From the NCBI GenBank assembly GCA_015059015.1, contig SVBG01000002.1, positions 113,636-177,635 on the forward strand: DNA of 64,000 nt, written 5' to 3'. Under the pieces are notes generated by a model. The model worked only from the letters and a program-made list of their open reading frames with translations, made no database searches and was not told the origin of the DNA. Positions 44,109 to 53,206 of the stretch are shown piece after piece; the first letter of the stretch is position 1; each line of letters begins with the position of its first letter. Source of the stretch: Erysipelotrichaceae bacterium (GTDB taxonomy: Bacteria > Bacillota_I > Bacilli_A > ML615J-28 > CAG-313). The position numbers were made by a program, and so were the translations under genes.

Positions 44109-44128
44109 GAAAAGTTGCTTCTATTTTT
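44095..44128. terminator. Bidirectional terminator
   Basis: AGAAGCAAC / GTTGCTTCT stem with T-rich tail, overlapping the ends of the convergent lipoprotein and hflX genes. Confidence 0.8.
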
Positions 44129-45404
44129 CAATTTCATACTTTTTATAAAGTTCATATAAATGTTTACTTAAAGTAACATTTACCATAGTACCAGTATCAA
44201 TATAACTAGTTTCATGAACATTAGCTTTTTCCATTAAAACATTATAAACTTCACCATTTGTATATGGAATAAGTAGAGTAGTTGTTACATCATCAGGGAA
44301 TAATTCTTTTTCAATATATTCAATTAATTCTTTTATACCAATATTTTTCTTATTAGATATTCTTAAAGATGGAGTATATGATGTAGGTATAAAAATTTCA
44401 TTAGTTACTAAATCAACTTTATTAAATACATATACACAAGGAATACTAGAACAATGAAGTTTATCTAAAACATTCATTGTAGTTTCTATTTGCCAATCTA
44501 CATATGGACTTGAAGTATCAATTAAATGAACGATTAAGGATGCTTCAGTGATTTCTTCTAGCGTTGATTTAAATGATTCTACTAAGTGATGTGGTAGTTT
44601 ATTTACAAAACCTACTGTATCTGTAATTAAGAATTCATGATTATTTGCAAGTTTTATCCTTCTTGTAGAAGTTTCAAGTGTTGCAAATAGCATATCTTTA
44701 ACAAATACTTGTTTATCAACATTTCCTTCAACATAGTTTAAGATACTATTAATAGTTGATGATTTACCTGCATTTGTATAGCCCACAAATGCAACAGTCT
44801 TTACTTCATTTTTTGCACGTGACTTACGCGATGTTTGACGATTTAATACAACATCATCAAGTTCTTGTTTTAATTTATAAATTCTGTTTTCAATATAACG
44901 TCTATCTAGTTCTAGTTTTGTTTCACCAGCACCACGTCTAGCACCACTTCCACCGCCGCCGCCACCACCAGTACGTGATAGATTCTTTCTTGCGCCAATT
45001 AGACGAGGTAGCATATAATTAAGGTTTGCTATTTCTACTTGTAGCATTGCTTCTTTAGTTTTAGCACGTGTTTTAAAGATTTCAAGAATTAGCATTGTTC
45101 TATCCATAATCTCACAAGGAATTTGATCTGCAAGATTAGATAGTTCAGCTGGAGATAATTCGTCATTAAAAACAACATAGTCTACATCTAATAAATTACA
45201 TAGTTCGACAAGTTCTATTAATTTTCCACTACCTATATATGTAGCATTATTTGTGTACGCAAGGTTTTGTGTAACAGTTTCAATACATTCAATATTACAC
45301 GCTTCACAAAGATTAACTAGTTCTTTCATTTCATAGTTAAATACTTCATCACGCCCTGTACATACACCAACTAAAATTGCTTTAGAAGAAGTAATATTTT
45401 CCAT
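44121..45404 (-). CDS. hflX: GTPase HflX, ribosome-splitting factor
   Basis: 427 residues. N-terminal HflX domain, the Gly-rich linker (about 146-155, a run of seven Gly) leading to 'GARRGAGETKLELDRR', then the G domain: P-loop 'GYTNAGKS' (208-215), switch 'TLETSTRRI', G3 'DTVGFVNKLP', G4 'NKVD'. HflX splits stalled 70S ribosomes under stress. AAGGAGG lies eight bases upstream. Transcribed divergently from the Clp-like gene. Confidence 0.95.
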   Translation of the reverse strand: MENITSSKAILVGVCTGRDEVFNYEMKELVNLCEACNIECIETVTQNLAYTNNATYIGSGKLIELVELCNLLDVDYVVFNDELSPAELSNLADQIPCEIMDRTMLILEIFKTRAKTKEAMLQVEIANLNYMLPRLIGARKNLSRTGGGGGGGSGARRGAGETKLELDRRYIENRIYKLKQELDDVVLNRQTSRKSRAKNEVKTVAFVGYTNAGKSSTINSILNYVEGNVDKQVFVKDMLFATLETSTRRIKLANNHEFLITDTVGFVNKLPHHLVESFKSTLEEITEASLIVHLIDTSSPYVDWQIETTMNVLDKLHCSSIPCVYVFNKVDLVTNEIFIPTSYTPSLRISNKKNIGIKELIEYIEKELFPDDVTTTLLIPYTNGEVYNVLMEKANVHETSYIDTGTMVNVTLSKHLYELYKKYEIEK

Positions 45405-45445: not shown

Positions 45446-45534
45446 AAAATTAATAACAATTTCTAAAATTATAATAATTTACCTATTTTCATCATATAAT
45501 AAATCGTATATTAAAAGATAAGGAGAAAAGGTAA

Positions 45535-47466
45535 ATGTTAGAAACATTTAGCATAAGAGCAGTAGAATTAATAGAAACTGCCAAAAACCTTGTAAAAATA
45601 AATAGCCAAACAAGCGATGTAGATACAGTATCAACATTTTATTTATTACTTTCAATGTTTAACGCTAATGATACAATATGTCATTTCTTACTTAATGAAT
45701 TAGATATTACACAAGATGACTTATACAAATCATATAACGAATTAACAATAAAAGAATCTCCTCAAAAAGTATTTTCTAAAGAATTTGAAACCCTTGTGTT
45801 AAACGCAACTAATCTTGCAAAAGAAGTAAAATCAGAATATGTATATGATGAACACTTATTCTATGTAATGTTAGAAGATAAAAACACTCTAGGTACTCAA
45901 ACATTAATTAACCTTAATATTAATATTGAACAATTAAAACAAGACATTAGTGATATATTTAATTTCTATGAAGAACAAATTTTTATAGTAGATAAAGTAG
46001 AATTAAAAGAACCAACTTATTTAATAAATTTATCAAAACAAATTCCTGTTCACTCATATATTGAAAGAAAAGATTATATTAATCAAGTTATATATATTTT
46101 ATCCAAAAGACAAAAAAATAATCCATTATTAATTGGACAAGCAGGAGTAGGGAAAACTGCTTTAATTACAGCACTTACAAAAATAATAGATATAGATATA
46201 TATGAACTTGATTTAGGTTGTTTAATATCAGGAACAAAATACCGAGGAGAAATGGAAGAAAAACTTACTGATGCGATTAAATACGTAATAAACAAAAATG
46301 CAATTCTTTTTATTGATGAGGTACATAATATCGTAGGAGCAGGATCAAACGATGGATCACTAGATGCTGCAAACATCATTAAACCATATCTATCAAAAGG
46401 AAAACTGAAACTGATAGCCGCAACAACTCTAGATGAATATTATAAATATATTGAAAAAGATAAAGCGTTAACAAGAAGGTTCCAAACAATCTTTATTGAT
46501 GAACCATCCAAAGAAGAAACACTTGAAATCTTAAAAGGAATTAAACAAAATTATATTGATTTTTATCATATCGATATACCTGATGAATTATTAGAATATA
46601 TAACTGATTTATGTGATAACTTTATTTTAAATAAAACATTCCCCGATAAAGCAATCGATGTTTTAGATGAAACACTTTCTAGATACACATATGAAAAGAA
46701 AGACTTAAAAAGTCTTGTAAAAGAAGTAATCAATTCACATCAAGGAATAACTATTCCTACTATTAACGAACTATTAAACTATAATTTGTATTATAATGAG
46801 TTTAAAACATTATATTTAAGAAAAATAAAACCAATTAATATATTAAAAAACTTAGGAATAGTATATGTAGATAAATCATTTAATAACGGTTTATTTCAAA
46901 AAGATTTAAATAAAGTATTTGGTTTAAAAAAAGAAAACTTTCTAGAACTAGATTTAAATGACTATTTAAATTCTGAATCAATAACCAACTTAATAGGTTC
47001 ATCAAAAGGTTATGTTGGATACTCAGAAGGTGGAATACTATACAATCATTTATTAAAATATCCATTTAGTATAATATATCTAAAAAACTTTGATAATACT
47101 AATTCATATTTAAAAACATTCTTTAATAATTTATTTAAAAAAGACTATATTATTGATCCTCATTCAAGATATGTATACTTAAAAAATACATTATTTATCT
47201 TAGAAAAAACAGAACTAAAATATAAAGTAGGTTTTATAACGAATAACGAAACTAATACATTAAACTCAGATTTAATAATAACCACAAAAATAGAAGAATC
47301 AAATGAACTATTTAATAACCTCTTAAAAAAAGGAATTATCATTGAAGGATTTAAAAACTTATCAATAACAGACCAAATTAATATATATTATCAAGCATTA
47401 CTTAAACCTATTGGAAAGTATCAAATCACTAGTTCAAAAACATTAGAATCTATAAACACTAATTAG
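45535..47466 (+). CDS. ClpC-like AAA+ protein with degenerate second ATPase domain
   Basis: 643 residues against about 810 for ClpC. Double Clp_N repeat (1-145). The first AAA+ domain is intact: Walker A GQAGVGKT (201-208), Walker B 'LFIDEVHN' (Asp261, Glu262), 'TRRFQ' arginine. No coiled-coil M domain is inserted. The second domain (about 440-640) still follows the ClpC pattern, with 'GYVGYSEGG' (492-500), but Walker A is replaced by 'VDKSFNNG' (about 445-452) and Walker B 'LLDEIEKA' by 'YLKNFDNT' (515-522), so it cannot bind or hydrolyse ATP normally. 'YKVGF' (563-567) sits where ClpC has its ClpP-docking tripeptide. AAGGAG precedes the ATG. Alone in its transcript. Confidence 0.82.
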   Translation: MLETFSIRAVELIETAKNLVKINSQTSDVDTVSTFYLLLSMFNANDTICHFLLNELDITQDDLYKSYNELTIKESPQKVFSKEFETLVLNATNLAKEVKSEYVYDEHLFYVMLEDKNTLGTQTLINLNINIEQLKQDISDIFNFYEEQIFIVDKVELKEPTYLINLSKQIPVHSYIERKDYINQVIYILSKRQKNNPLLIGQAGVGKTALITALTKIIDIDIYELDLGCLISGTKYRGEMEEKLTDAIKYVINKNAILFIDEVHNIVGAGSNDGSLDAANIIKPYLSKGKLKLIAATTLDEYYKYIEKDKALTRRFQTIFIDEPSKEETLEILKGIKQNYIDFYHIDIPDELLEYITDLCDNFILNKTFPDKAIDVLDETLSRYTYEKKDLKSLVKEVINSHQGITIPTINELLNYNLYYNEFKTLYLRKIKPINILKNLGIVYVDKSFNNGLFQKDLNKVFGLKKENFLELDLNDYLNSESITNLIGSSKGYVGYSEGGILYNHLLKYPFSIIYLKNFDNTNSYLKTFFNNLFKKDYIIDPHSRYVYLKNTLFILEKTELKYKVGFITNNETNTLNSDLIITTKIEESNELFNNLLKKGIIIEGFKNLSITDQINIYYQALLKPIGKYQITSSKTLESINTN

Positions 47467-47489
47467 AAGTTTAATTAGTGTTTTTTTTC
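47454..47489 (+). terminator. Rho-independent terminator
   Basis: AACACTAATTA / TAATTAGTGTT, perfect 11-bp stem overlapping the stop, followed by eight Ts. Confidence 0.88.
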
Positions 47490-47533
47490 TTTAAAAATAA
47501 TTTTTCCTAATTTATCGCTTTTTTTTATTAATG

Positions 47534-47542
47534 TGATATAAT
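47534..47542 (+). promoter_or_regulatory. Extended -10 promoter of the helicase-ankyrin-cdaA operon
   Basis: TG-A-TATAAT; start near 47549, so the ATG at 47547 is excluded and the ATG at 47577 (after GAGGTG) is the start. Confidence 0.6.
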
Positions 47543-47576
47543 ATAAATGTATAAGTATGTTTACACGAGGTGCAAT

Positions 47577-50500
47577 ATGAGTAAAATTGAAAAAGAAAGA
47601 AGAATTAATGAATATAATATTCAATCAATTAATACACATTTAGTAAATATTTTAGAAGAAAATTATTATATTGAACTTGGTAATGTTGATATAAAAGTTC
47701 TTGATAAGCTTTTTAGTGGTCATCCTGTTGCATTAAGTGAAATATTTTATTTTGATATTACTGCAAATGGTATTGGAAGAATAAGTAGTGAAGTAAAAGA
47801 TGATGTTAACTATCAACTTAATTATTTATATAGTCTTCATCAAAAGTCATCATCATCTAAATTTATTCTTACTTGTGGTACCACAAAATATCTTGATAAA
47901 ACTGGTGTAGAAAAGTTTTCACCGATTGTTTTAATACCACTTTCAATTGATTATGTTAGACAAGAACTAGTAATTGTCGGTAATGCTTGTTTTAATACAA
48001 TGTTACTTAGAATTTGTAAGTCAGAAAAACTTTTAGATGATAAACAAATAGTTGAATTAACTAATCTTGCTAATAATAAAATTGAAAATGTATTTGAACT
48101 TGATAATGTTTGTGTGAAACTTCGTGATATTACTGGATTTGAAATTGACACTTGTAACTATTTATCACTTATGGAAGTAGAATATTCTGACTATGTTGAA
48201 CAAGAAAATTTCTTTAATGTTCAACGTTCTATTTATGAAATAAATGATATTGAATTAATTAAAAAGTATTTTAAAAATGTTCATGCGATTAAACCTAGTA
48301 ATATTGAACAAAAATATGTAATATTAAAAGCTCATAATGGAGAAAATATTGTTATTGATGGTAAGCTTGGTGCTGGTAAAAGTTCGACTGCTTTAAATAT
48401 TATTGCGGATAAAATTTATGATGGTAAGAAAGTTTTATATGTAAATCAAGATTTAGATAATATTAGTGATTTTAGAAGATATATTAAATATTTAGGTTTT
48501 GAACCATATGCTTATGATTTAACTAAAAACGTTTGGAATTTAGATGATTTAAAACCACTAGATGTTGTTTCTCATGATAAATTTAATGAAAGTGTAATTG
48601 ATGACGTTGCGGCATATCGTGATACATATCATAAGAAATTTCATGGATATCCATATAGTTATATTTTAGAAAAACTTGCAACAAGAAAATCAATGGGATT
48701 AGAAGATAAGATATATTTAGAAACTAATCTAGATCGTGAAGAAGTTGAATATATATATAAAACATTAAAAGAAGTAGAAGCATGTTTATCCAATGTTGAT
48801 CCACTTCCTAATAATGTTTGGGCGCGCTTACAATCTGGACAAAATTCATTAACACCTGCTGATATTAAGAATCATACTAAAACTTTCTATGAAGAAAATA
48901 AAAAGTTAATGAAATATCTTGATAAGATAGCTGCAAAACATCATTTAAATAAAATCGATAATATAACTGCTTTTTACCATTTAATTGAAGAAATTAATAG
49001 TTTTAAATTATATAAACCACTTCCTATTTGGGGAAGTGATGAGTTTGTTGAAAAAAATACAGATGCGCTTAATAAAATTGCTCATTATGTAGATTACTAT
49101 GATAATTGTGTAACTTATTATAATTCACACTGTACTAAGAAATATGTTACTGGAAGTATTGGTGAGGATTTTAAATCTATTATTAATAAACGTTATCAAA
49201 TAACTAATCATAATTCTAGTGATGTAAAGTACGTAGATGAGTTATTAAATAATTTTGATTTAGTAGAAAATCTACATACAAAATCTATTCGTTGGGTTGA
49301 AGCGTCAATTGGCATATATGATAAAATAAAAAATTATTTTGATTTTGAATCACCAAGTAGTGAACAATTTGTGTTATTAAATAAATTACTTAATTTGCTT
49401 GAAACTACTGATGTTGATGATGCTTGGTTTGATGAATTTATTTTAAATCCTAAATTACTTCGTGATAAAGCACAAAAACTAAATAAAATAAATAATCAAA
49501 TTATTGAACAATATCAATTATTAGATCCATTTCTACATATGAATGAAATGACATATGAACTAATGGATGAACTTGTAAATAATAAACGTTATGTAAAAAT
49601 TGTAAAGGGTTTATTAAACAAAGATGATTTAAAAAGACATAAAACTAATGCTTCAATTATTGCGACAAATTTAAAATTATATTATGAGAAAGTAACTGAA
49701 TTAAAAGCTGAATTACCAAAAGATACAAAATTAAATATTTTAGATGAAAATACATGGGGTAGTTATTTATCATTCTTAAACTTTATAGATTTACTTACAC
49801 CATGGGAAACAATTGTATTAAATTTATTTATTAAAAAGACAAAAGCTATTAAAGATTTTAAACGTTCTGATTTAATCAAAGACTTAACGATTTTAAGAGA
49901 AAATCAACGTGAATTAGATGTAATAGAGTCAGGTCTTGCAAAATTTAACTTACGCATCACTGGAAGTAACTTTATTGAATCTGTAAAATCAATTAAATCA
50001 TATATTCCATATTTAGCTCAAGTTCTTGTTGCAATTGAAAATATTAAATCTTATTTTAAAAATAGCGCTAATATTACTACTTACGATGTTTTATATTTAA
50101 TTGAAATAGATAAACAATTTACTGAAAGTAAAAAACATTTTGAAGAAAACGATGAATATTATAAAACATTATATGGTAATGGTTATTTAGACAAAGATAC
50201 TGATGTTATAACGTTGGGTCAAACTGTTGAACACTTTAGAAATTTTATTAATAAACTTAGAGTTTATGAGGGTATTACAAAAGAAAATATTTATGTTGCG
50301 TTATTAAATGATAAAGTGTATAGTGAATTTATGGATAGTTGTGCTCATTTTGATGAACTATATGAATCTTGGTACAATGCATTAAGAGGATTTTCAATAT
50401 GCTTTTATCAAGGTAAACTTGAATTACAAAGTGAAACATTTGCTACGATTAATAAAGTATTATCCGAATATGTCAATAAACTTGATCAATTAGAACCTAT

Positions 50501-51908
50501 TTATCGTGTGGAACATATCTTAGATTCATATTATTATTATGGTTTAAGAGACTTTGCTAAAAAAATTCAAAGTGGGTATTTTAATGATGATATTTCTATC
50601 ATATCTGAATTATATTTATATTCAACAATGAATAAATATTATAAAGATATGCTTAAAGAAGGACATCATGAATTTAGTATTTCTAATTTAGTTAAAACTG
50701 TAAATATGTTTGCACAAGAAGAAGAAGATTATTGTGAAAACAATATCTTTGAACTTAGAAAACGTATAAGTGGATATTCAAATAAAAAACGTAAGGCATT
50801 TAAAGTTACACCATTTGTGGATCCGTTTAATTCAATAGTAGAAAATACACCTCATTATAAGAAAATATTTATTGCAGATATTGATGTATTTAACAGAATG
50901 AATGATTTTTCTTACTTTGATTTAGTTATTATTGATGATGCTCATTTATCAACATCTAATAAATATTCTAATCTATATAAGGCTAATCAAGTAGTTATTT
51001 TAGGGGATGCGTCATTCCAATCTTCTGCAACTAACTCACTGATGCAAAGAAATAAAAACTTTACTTGTATCCCACTTCATAAACGTTATATTGAAATGAA
51101 ATCCGAGTTTGGAAATATTTGGCAAACTGATAATCAATATATTTATACACCATCAATGGTTATTGAAAAAAATAAAATAACATCATTAAGTGTAATGGCT
51201 GATATGATTATTGAGAAATTCAAAGAACATTATGAAAAAGCTAACAAAAAGACAATTAATGTTTTAGTTACTAAATCAACTACAAGAAGAGAAATCTATA
51301 GTCTATTAGTAAATAGATTAAAAAACGAATTTTCAATGGAAGATACAATTAAGATTCTTAATTTATCAATTAAAATTATTTCTACAAATTATGAATCAAA
51401 TAGATTATCAGACTATACATATATGTGGTATGAAGATTTAGAAGATTTAAATAACATTGCATTAGAACTTGTAAAACGTAATTATATTACCGCAAAACAT
51501 GAAGTTCATTTATGTTATCAAGATTTAAGAGCTACTAAAAAGAATGAAATCTTAATGGAAAAAATTGATGATTTCATTGGTAAACCATTAACGCTTGATT
51601 TTAGAATTGATGGTATAACAAAAATTATTTATACTCGTCTAATTAAAAAAAGTATTGAAGTAGAAATAGGACCTGGATATATTGACTTAGTAGTAAAGAA
51701 AAACAATAAAAACTTAGGATTTATTATTTATGGCCAAAGAACAGATATGTGCTACTCTATGGTTGATGATTATATATATTATGTTAATGAATATCAAAAA
51801 CGTGGGTGGGATATATATATATATTGTATGGAAGAACTTTATAAAAACTTAGATGATGTAATCGAAAAAATTTATAAACTTGCAAAAGAAGGTAATAATA
51901 ATGCCTAG
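47577..51908 (+). CDS. Divergent superfamily 1 (Upf1-like) helicase with nuclease-like tail
   Basis: 1443 residues. The N-terminal part (about 1-240) resembles the DUF4011-type region that precedes SF1 helicases ('FSPIVLIPLSIDY' matches its 'yPlvLiPv' strand). Walker A is GKLGAGKS (262-269) in place of the usual GPPGTGKS. A long helical insertion (about 370-1080) separates it from motif II, 'VIIDDAHLS' (Asp1120, Asp1121 where Glu is normal), and motif III 'VVILGDASFQSS'. The C-terminal 110 residues follow the MTES_1575/Vsr-like pattern 'GYIDLVV' ... 'RGWDIYIY' but the catalytic Glu/Asp positions are lost. ATP turnover and nuclease activity may both be weak or absent. Overlaps the ankyrin gene by 8 bases. 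Confidence 0.7.
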   Translation: MSKIEKERRINEYNIQSINTHLVNILEENYYIELGNVDIKVLDKLFSGHPVALSEIFYFDITANGIGRISSEVKDDVNYQLNYLYSLHQKSSSSKFILTCGTTKYLDKTGVEKFSPIVLIPLSIDYVRQELVIVGNACFNTMLLRICKSEKLLDDKQIVELTNLANNKIENVFELDNVCVKLRDITGFEIDTCNYLSLMEVEYSDYVEQENFFNVQRSIYEINDIELIKKYFKNVHAIKPSNIEQKYVILKAHNGENIVIDGKLGAGKSSTALNIIADKIYDGKKVLYVNQDLDNISDFRRYIKYLGFEPYAYDLTKNVWNLDDLKPLDVVSHDKFNESVIDDVAAYRDTYHKKFHGYPYSYILEKLATRKSMGLEDKIYLETNLDREEVEYIYKTLKEVEACLSNVDPLPNNVWARLQSGQNSLTPADIKNHTKTFYEENKKLMKYLDKIAAKHHLNKIDNITAFYHLIEEINSFKLYKPLPIWGSDEFVEKNTDALNKIAHYVDYYDNCVTYYNSHCTKKYVTGSIGEDFKSIINKRYQITNHNSSDVKYVDELLNNFDLVENLHTKSIRWVEASIGIYDKIKNYFDFESPSSEQFVLLNKLLNLLETTDVDDAWFDEFILNPKLLRDKAQKLNKINNQIIEQYQLLDPFLHMNEMTYELMDELVNNKRYVKIVKGLLNKDDLKRHKTNASIIATNLKLYYEKVTELKAELPKDTKLNILDENTWGSYLSFLNFIDLLTPWETIVLNLFIKKTKAIKDFKRSDLIKDLTILRENQRELDVIESGLAKFNLRITGSNFIESVKSIKSYIPYLAQVLVAIENIKSYFKNSANITTYDVLYLIEIDKQFTESKKHFEENDEYYKTLYGNGYLDKDTDVITLGQTVEHFRNFINKLRVYEGITKENIYVALLNDKVYSEFMDSCAHFDELYESWYNALRGFSICFYQGKLELQSETFATINKVLSEYVNKLDQLEPIYRVEHILDSYYYYGLRDFAKKIQSGYFNDDISIISELYLYSTMNKYYKDMLKEGHHEFSISNLVKTVNMFAQEEEDYCENNIFELRKRISGYSNKKRKAFKVTPFVDPFNSIVENTPHYKKIFIADIDVFNRMNDFSYFDLVIIDDAHLSTSNKYSNLYKANQVVILGDASFQSSATNSLMQRNKNFTCIPLHKRYIEMKSEFGNIWQTDNQYIYTPSMVIEKNKITSLSVMADMIIEKFKEHYEKANKKTINVLVTKSTTRREIYSLLVNRLKNEFSMEDTIKILNLSIKIISTNYESNRLSDYTYMWYEDLEDLNNIALELVKRNYITAKHEVHLCYQDLRATKKNEILMEKIDDFIGKPLTLDFRIDGITKIIYTRLIKKSIEVEIGPGYIDLVVKKNNKNLGFIIYGQRTDMCYSMVDDYIYYVNEYQKRGWDIYIYCMEELYKNLDDVIEKIYKLAKEGNNNA

Positions 51909-52413
51909 TAATAAGAAAATGTTTATTAGTATTATTCATATCTTTAGAGATTATCCAAATCATCTTGCATTAATTAAGAAAACTATTCGTAATCAACTTG
52001 CAAATGGCTTCGATATTAATACAAAATATTTAAAAGGAAAAACACTTGCTCATTATGTAGTTAAATATAATGTTACAGGACTATTTTTATACTTATTAAA
52101 ATGTGGACTTAACTTAAATATTTGTGATGATAATTATGATACACCACTGCATGCTGCAGTAAAATGTAATCGAGTAATTCTAGTAAAAGAATTAATAAAA
52201 TGTGGTGTAGATATTAATTTATCTGGTGAATTTGAAGCAACACCACTACACACTGCTGTATCTGAAGGATATAGTGAAATTGTAATGTTATTACTTAAAG
52301 CAGGTGTTGATGTATCGTTAGTAGATGAAAGAAATCAATCTGCACTTGATTATGCAATAGATGAAAAAAACGATCAAATAATTAATTTATTAAAAAATAG
52401 AAAGGTATCATAA
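51901..52413 (+). CDS. Ankyrin-repeat protein
   Basis: 170 residues from ATG 51901 (GAAGGTAATA upstream, within the helicase end). Four ankyrin units: 'KGKTLAHYVVKYNVTGLFLYL', then 'NYDTPLHAAVKCNRVILVKEL', 'FEATPLHTAVSEGYSEIVML' and 'RNQSALDYAIDEKNDQIINL'. No signal peptide, so cytosolic. Ankyrin domains bind proteins. It lies between the helicase gene (8-base overlap) and cdaA (one base apart), so its partner may be either product; this is inference. Confidence 0.85.
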   Translation: MPSNKKMFISIIHIFRDYPNHLALIKKTIRNQLANGFDINTKYLKGKTLAHYVVKYNVTGLFLYLLKCGLNLNICDDNYDTPLHAAVKCNRVILVKELIKCGVDINLSGEFEATPLHTAVSEGYSEIVMLLLKAGVDVSLVDERNQSALDYAIDEKNDQIINLLKNRKVS

Positions 52414-52414
52414 A

Positions 52415-53206
52415 ATGGGTGAAAATTTAATTAATATAGGAATGATAAATGACCAAACTAATTATATTAAATTAGCAATAGAACTTGGCATTTTTATTCT
52501 TATAGTTATTATCATAGCAGCTTTTATTTATAAGAAAACAAAAAGATCAAAAACTGTTGTAATATCAATCTTATATTTAATTGCTGGAATTGCTGTATGT
52601 ATTTTAGATTTAAATATTTTAAAATATGCATTATTAGTTGTTGGAACTATTATTAGTACTAACTGTTTATTAGTAACAAATCAAGAACAAAGAACTAATT
52701 CAAGAACTCATGTTGCTCCTGTTAAAGTGCCAAAAAATGCTTTAACTGATGAAGGTGCAAAAGAAAAATTAATTGAAACACTTGTTGCCGCAACAGCATA
52801 TTTATCCTCAAGAAAGATTGGTGCAATAATCACAATTGAAAAAACACAAAATCTAAACACATATATTGAAAAAGGTGTTAAACTTGATGCAGAAGTAACA
52901 GTAGAACTGTTAAAAACAATTTTCTTCCCTAATACTGCTTTACATGATGGGGCTGTAATTATTAGAGGAAATCGTATTATGTGTGCTGGAACATTCTATA
53001 CTCCAAGTGATAAACCAGATATTAGTAGTGAACTAGGGAGTCGTCACCGTGCTGCTATTGGTATTAGCGAAGATAGCGATGCATTTACTGTAGTTGTATC
53101 AGAAGAATCAGGTAAAATATCTACTACACTTGGTGGAACGATTACAAGAGAATTAAGTGAAGAAGCATTAAGATTATCACTTACAAATCATATTATTATT
53201 CAATAA
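52415..53206 (+). CDS. cdaA: Membrane diadenylate cyclase (c-di-AMP synthase)
   Basis: 263 residues, AAAGGT upstream. Three N-terminal membrane helices (about 17-85), then the DAC domain: 'LHDGAVII' with the DGA motif (178-180), 'GSRHRAAIGISE' with RHR (210-212), and 'VVSEESGKIS'. It makes c-di-AMP from two ATP, a signal controlling potassium and osmotic balance and wall integrity in Firmicutes. The usual partner genes cdaR and glmM are absent; the next gene is a PAS membrane protein. An unusually long loop precedes the DAC domain. Confidence 0.95.
   Translation: MGENLINIGMINDQTNYIKLAIELGIFILIVIIIAAFIYKKTKRSKTVVISILYLIAGIAVCILDLNILKYALLVVGTIISTNCLLVTNQEQRTNSRTHVAPVKVPKNALTDEGAKEKLIETLVAATAYLSSRKIGAIITIEKTQNLNTYIEKGVKLDAEVTVELLKTIFFPNTALHDGAVIIRGNRIMCAGTFYTPSDKPDISSELGSRHRAAIGISEDSDAFTVVVSEESGKISTTLGGTITRELSEEALRLSLTNHIIIQ

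Follow-up and report, generated by a model that had tools for sequence, protein, structure and literature searches.

ClpC of Bacillus and Staphylococcus and ClpC1 of Mycobacterium share with the protein described here, which we call psi-D2 Clp, an N domain, a first AAA+ domain (D1), a pore loop in the second domain (D2), and a ClpP-docking loop of the [IVLA]GF type. In contrast to ClpC, psi-D2 Clp has lost the D2 ATPase motifs, the D2 arginine finger, and the middle domain, and a search of 22 carrier genomes for MecA was negative. The nearest clade in a tree of D1 sequences comprises short ClpC proteins of Erysipelotrichia-like Bacilli (Beduini L104; L070, L072, L074, L103), which are about 700 aa long and possess a docking loop, but in which, unlike in psi-D2 Clp, both Walker motifs (A and B) of D2 are intact. 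Double-ring AAA+ machines with one working ring and a second ring in a different role include Pex1/Pex6 and NSF; these differ in belonging to other AAA+ clades and in not docking a protease.

D2 has been described as the principal motor ring of ClpA, with D1 in an auxiliary role (PMC9663308), which makes a layout driven by D1 alone the reverse of what would be expected. Enterococcus ClpE mutated in the Walker B motif of its second ring resembles psi-D2 Clp in combining a working D1, a dead second ring, and a ClpP partner; it loses disaggregation of MDH and the stimulation of its ATPase by ClpP, and retains partial activity on casein and CtsR (PMC13125188). This mutant differs, however, in being laboratory-made with an intact P-loop, and ClpE as it occurs in nature carries a zinc-binding N domain together with a coiled-coil middle domain. 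Since the mutant is weakened, a D1-only machine must be weak or have changed. In S. aureus ClpC, mutation of the loop abolishes ClpP binding (PMC12521514). ClpI of Actinomycetota is also an unusual ClpC-like class found by comparison, and ClpIa has a docking loop; its ATPase modules are nevertheless intact (PMC10149685), so psi-D2 Clp, in which D2 is dead, does not belong to the same class, and membership in ClpI was rejected. We found no published description of the psi-D2 class in the open-access literature.

This study concerns a psi-D2 Clp gene located in a 64,000-nucleotide stretch of contig SVBG01000002.1 from an Erysipelotrichaceae bacterium (hereafter the window). We propose that its product is probably a ClpC-derived, ClpP-partnered unfoldase running on a single ATPase ring, D1, with psi-D2 serving as a passive pore and docking ring.

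The gene and its degenerate second domain

The features of the locus are as follows.

44121..45404, minus strand: hflX (TIGR03156), a conserved divergent neighbour outside the machine
45520..45525, plus strand: ribosome-binding site AAGGAG, 9 nt ahead of the ATG, read from the sequence
45535..47466, plus strand: psi-D2 Clp gene, stop included, encoding a putative ClpC-derived unfoldase of 643 aa (ORF, Pfam, alignment)
45535..45969, plus strand: N-terminal substrate/adaptor domain Clp_N, residues 1-145 (PF02861 at 93-140; aligned with ClpC from residue 1)
46006..46740, plus strand: D1, intact AAA+ module, residues 158-402 (PF00004, PF17871; catalytic residues in 33/33 homologues)
46135..46158, plus strand: D1 Walker A GQAGVGKT, residues 201-208 (alignment, conservation count)
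46237..46248, plus strand: D1 pore loop KYRG, residues 235-238 (alignment, conservation count)
46309..46320, plus strand: D1 Walker B FIDE, residues 259-262 (alignment, conservation count)
46474..46479, plus strand: D1 arginine finger RR, residues 314-315 (33/33)
46756..47250, plus strand: psi-D2 large subdomain, degenerate AAA_2 module, residues 408-572 (PF07724 at 453-556; AF2, Foldseek)
46867..46890, plus strand: lost Walker A position VDKSFNNG, residues 445-452 (GxxxxGK[ST] kept in 0/33)
47008..47022, plus strand: retained D2 pore loop GYVGY, residues 492-496 (GY[VI]G[YF] in 33/33)
47077..47100, plus strand: lost Walker B position YLKNFDNT, residues 515-522 (Glu to Asn in 29/33, Asp to Lys in 24/33)
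47227..47235, plus strand: retained putative ClpP-docking tripeptide VGF, residues 565-567 (Gly in 32/32, then Phe in 27/32)
47299..47463, plus strand: D2 small-domain remnant, residues 589-643 (AF2 secondary structure; dN/dS higher here in several pairs)
47454..47483, plus strand: terminator-like hairpin followed by a T run (-11.4 kcal/mol, z -4.25)

The initial annotation had described an otherwise healthy gene, with an open frame, a ribosome site, a terminator, and a promoter region. The first three were confirmed, the hairpin, being AT-rich, having been overlooked by a simple terminator scan; the promoter region was not, as a promoter scan returned 18 matches in this AT-rich DNA against 19.9 expected by chance. 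The locus continues (45535-53206) with a 1443-aa helicase-like protein, an ankyrin-repeat protein, and cdaA (diadenylate cyclase), an order kept in many relatives of families f1, f2, and f4, and hflX lies near the gene in families f1, f2, f8, and f21. The helicase-like protein weakly matches the anti-phage models ProA and PDC-S37; a defence role for psi-D2 Clp was rejected, since it would rest on this neighbour alone.

Pfam assigned Clp_N, AAA and AAA_lid_9 (D1), and a partial AAA_2 match (D2) to the protein. Every D1 element was found, which agrees with the initial annotation, and alignment with sister ClpC proteins bore out its account of D2: where these carry GPTGVGKT and [VIL]LDE[VI]EKA, the window protein has VDKSFNNG and YLKNFDNT, whereas GYVGY is kept and VGF occupies the position of the [LIM]G[FY] that follows sensor 1 in canonical and sister ClpCs. 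The family profile aligns this docking loop with KYVGF of B. subtilis ClpC. Deletion of the D2 arginine-finger segment had not been mentioned earlier. Alignment with ClpB and ClpC revealed no middle domain. Membership in ClpB was rejected, given the docking loop, the lack of a long middle domain, and the separation from ClpB in the D1 tree, as was membership in ClpE, whose N-terminal zinc finger is replaced here by Clp_N, the window sequence having no CxxC pair.

The same D2 losses were sought in related genomes and were found in five families. Conservation was counted over 33 different psi-D2 proteins, the docking loop being scored in 32. The D1 Walker A lysine, Walker B Asp-Glu pair, pore tyrosine, and arginine finger are present in all 33, whereas in D2 the P-loop and Walker B are present in none and the arginine-finger segment is deleted in all; the stretch corresponding to Walker A is unconserved, variable in length, and without a P-loop of any form. 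By contrast, the GY[VI]G pore loop of D2 occurs in 33/33. Only six columns of the 32-row psi-D2 alignment are invariant, namely four in LIGxxxGYVG, one Asp, and the docking-loop Gly, around which the region is otherwise poorly conserved; the docking tripeptide in a few members is TGF, AGF, KGF, or LGI rather than IGF. Judged from this alignment of 33 diverged homologues, the D2 motif pattern is not due to chance. The dead Walker B is itself not random, with Lys (24/33) and Asn (29/33) at the positions of residues 517-518 (47083-47088), possibly a new structural motif.

The D2 small-domain remnant is absent from seven homologues (L020, L022, L023, L034, L040, L041, L160), and in the shortest members the docking loop is a bare C-terminal tail. 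Three proteins end zero to two residues past IGF (L160 ...KNKIGF, L040 ...EKIGFNF, L041 ...EKIGFVS), so trimming of the domain has reached the docking motif without cutting into it. In the G016 homologue, what look like stops lie beyond its natural end, ...EKIGFNF.

An AF2 model of the whole protein reached a pLDDT of 77, with values below 50 in the GYVGY loop and the 561-587 loop that includes VGF, as expected if both are flexible. The psi-D2 fragment alone (residues 408-643) reached 85, and Foldseek placed this predicted structure closest to the D2 domains of ClpB, ClpA, and ClpC. It superposed on the Skd3 AAA domain at 2.4 A over 141 columns but only poorly (12 A) on the full ClpB NBD2, probably owing to a reduced and differently placed small domain in the model.

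Spread, origin, and selection

psi-D2 Clp occurs in all six genera of its own family and in 11/28 genomes of a second family in the same order, and a psi-D2 profile search added three more families of the class Bacilli (f4, f8, f21), giving five in total. Carriers include gut Bacilli, a MAG called Anaeroplasma bactoclasticum, Acholeplasmatales, and Ca. Bathyoplasma. In a tree built from D1 alone, and thus without the columns of the trait itself, all 35 psi-D2 rows formed one clade (UFBoot 99, SH-aLRT 97) that was recovered in 100% of 200 bootstrap trees, which indicates a single origin. The sister group in a quick tree was the short ClpCs of Erysipelotrichia-like Bacilli with a live D2 and a docking loop, and most branches tracked organism families, the exception being the long-branched L156.

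The f8 gene has radA as its direct neighbour, with ispD, ispF, gltX, and cysS close by; this is the clpC neighbourhood of Bacillus, where clpC likewise adjoins radA. For this reason psi-D2 Clp is most simply regarded as clpC itself with a dead D2 and not as an added copy. At the window locus radA is not adjacent, the neighbours being hflX and the helicase-like gene.

psi-D2 is under purifying selection. Its dN/dS (Nei-Gojobori; pairs with saturated dS left out) was 0.09-0.37 wherever dS was unsaturated, well below 1. In the G000-G001 pair, the values were 0.06 for the N domain, 0.12 for D1, and 0.09 for psi-D2, and in the L017-L018 pair 0.009, 0.024, and 0.10, respectively; the pore-loop segment showed no amino-acid change in these two closest pairs. 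The C-terminal tail is looser (0.30 in L017-L018, 0.90 in L015-L016). Together with the spread and the open frames, these values support the earlier view of a maintained one-engine Clp; neither an intact D2 at the locus in near relatives nor decay in sister strains was found. The gene thus appears to encode an old, working design with one engine and not a broken Clp. A pseudogene in decay or an assembly artefact, for which nothing speaks beyond the lost motifs, can be dismissed, being refuted by the occurrence in five families, the one origin, the open frames, the low dN/dS, and the independent assemblies, one of which is a single contig.

Clp complement and linkage with ClpP

The genome of the window (G000; 2.01 Mb, 98% complete) encodes psi-D2 Clp as its only Hsp100-type Clp, in addition to one ClpP with Ser-His-Asp residues, ClpX, and Lon; genome searches found neither a complete ClpC nor a ClpB. 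Many of its relatives carry a ClpB of about 710 aa without an N domain, and ClpB occurs alongside psi-D2 Clp in f8 and f21 as well as in part of f1 and of f2. Hit regions with stops in G003 and G007 proved to belong to ClpB reading frames that are clean.

Canonical ClpP was found in 44/45 psi-D2 Clp carriers vs 13/29 non-carriers, the exception being G026 (82% complete), in which ClpP was not detected. As the genomes are related and kinship was left uncorrected, the Fisher value (p 1e-7) is descriptive only, and contrasts within genera therefore weigh more. In three genera psi-D2 Clp and ClpP are absent together while ClpB stays: in g79, G229 and G377 have both and G116, G317, and G383 neither; in g20, G038 and G040 have both and G039 (97% complete) neither; in g1, G000-G002 have both and G003 neither. 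In f21, canonical ClpP was present in 12/12 carriers and 0/8 non-carriers; a divergent ClpP-like protein (E about 1e-35) in five of these non-carriers was not counted as canonical.

ClpX was not found in the 13 f21 genomes tested (5 carriers, 8 non-carriers), though several keep ClpP, and the f21 ClpBs that were read have no docking loop. On these sequence grounds, psi-D2 Clp is the only recognisable partner of ClpP in this family. The remaining matches to AAA_2 in f21 come from proteins of Lon size, from RarA, or from an AAA protein that is unrelated, and a possible extra ClpX (about 410 aa, weak AAA_2 match) reads by eye as RarA. One divergent ClpP-like gene (L169, in G182 of f21) lies near a Clp-type ATPase fragment with an intact Walker B; the two perhaps form a separate Clp pair in genus g118. 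A further genome, G082 of f8, has four ClpP-like genes, of which three (239-261 aa) match only weakly.

A proposed one-motor Clp and its alternatives

We infer that six copies would assemble through D1, with the N domain selecting substrates and ATP hydrolysis in D1 alone pulling the chain by means of the KYRG loops. The stacked psi-D2 ring would burn no ATP; its GYVG loops would line the lower pore and passively guide or hold the chain. The [IVLAT]G[FLY] loops of the same ring would plug into the hydrophobic pockets of ClpP, so that the chain enters the protease. By analogy with the partial activity of the ClpE mutant and the ClpC loop data, it is plausible that D1 drives soft substrates through a passive psi-D2 and into ClpP. 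Against this reading stand the leading role of D2 in ClpA, the weakened ClpE mutant, the members whose docking tripeptide departs from IGF, and, in the ClpP counts, the kinship of the genomes and the case of G026. With somewhat more reserve, we regard it as likely that these proteins form a natural Hsp100/Clp class in which D1 is the sole motor and D2 a nucleotide-free pore and docking ring, and which in one Bacilli family accounts for the only recognisable partner of ClpP.

The initial annotation had also suggested that the protein might act only as a scaffold. D1 would then cycle only to assemble or open the ring, and psi-D2 would dock and open ClpP without real unfolding, leaving ClpP to degrade unfolded or small proteins. 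Loss of the stronger motor and of the middle domain would suit this role, as would the failure to find MecA in 22 carrier genomes and the restriction of ClpE with a dead second ring to partial activity on soft substrates (PMC13125188). We nevertheless consider it unlikely, and less probable than an unfoldase driven by D1, because all 33 proteins have an intact D1, its pore tyrosine and arginine finger included, and keep it together with the ClpP loop and ClpP itself; the equally invariant psi-D2 pore loop suits threading.

A chaperone or disaggregase that works independently of ClpP and merely retains the loop could fill the role of the ClpB missing from G000, yet this is quite improbable: the loop Gly is invariant amid poorly conserved surroundings, the truncations stop just past the motif, and in g1, g20, and g79 psi-D2 Clp is absent together with ClpP while ClpB stays. 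The fairly conserved replacement of the Walker B Asp-Glu pair by Lys-Asn might point to a new motif by which psi-D2 still binds or hydrolyses nucleotide; the unconserved Walker A stretch, with no P-loop of any form, and the missing arginine-finger segment make this most improbable. Mixing of subunits with a complete Clp in hetero-hexamers has as candidate partners the ClpBs that accompany psi-D2 Clp in f8 and f21 and in part of f1 and of f2, but we give it hardly any credence, as G000 has no other Hsp100 and ClpB has no docking loop and a D1 in a separate clade.

Under the preferred reading, a ClpP-partnered unfoldase driven by D1, weakly folded proteins would be the expected substrates of choice, since D2 no longer adds power. 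Work on how the two rings divide their labour in ClpA and ClpC has relied mostly on point mutants; in psi-D2 Clp evolution ran the experiment, taking away the principal motor a single time, long ago, while the machine persisted. psi-D2 Clps thus allow one to ask whether D1 alone is enough for unfolding and threading into ClpP, which role the pore loop of D2 can play in the absence of ATP, and what minimal D2 is needed for ClpP docking. Automatic annotation would probably label these proteins ordinary Clp ATPases, and their recognition changes the reading of protein quality control in Anaeroplasma-type and other wall-poor Bacilli.
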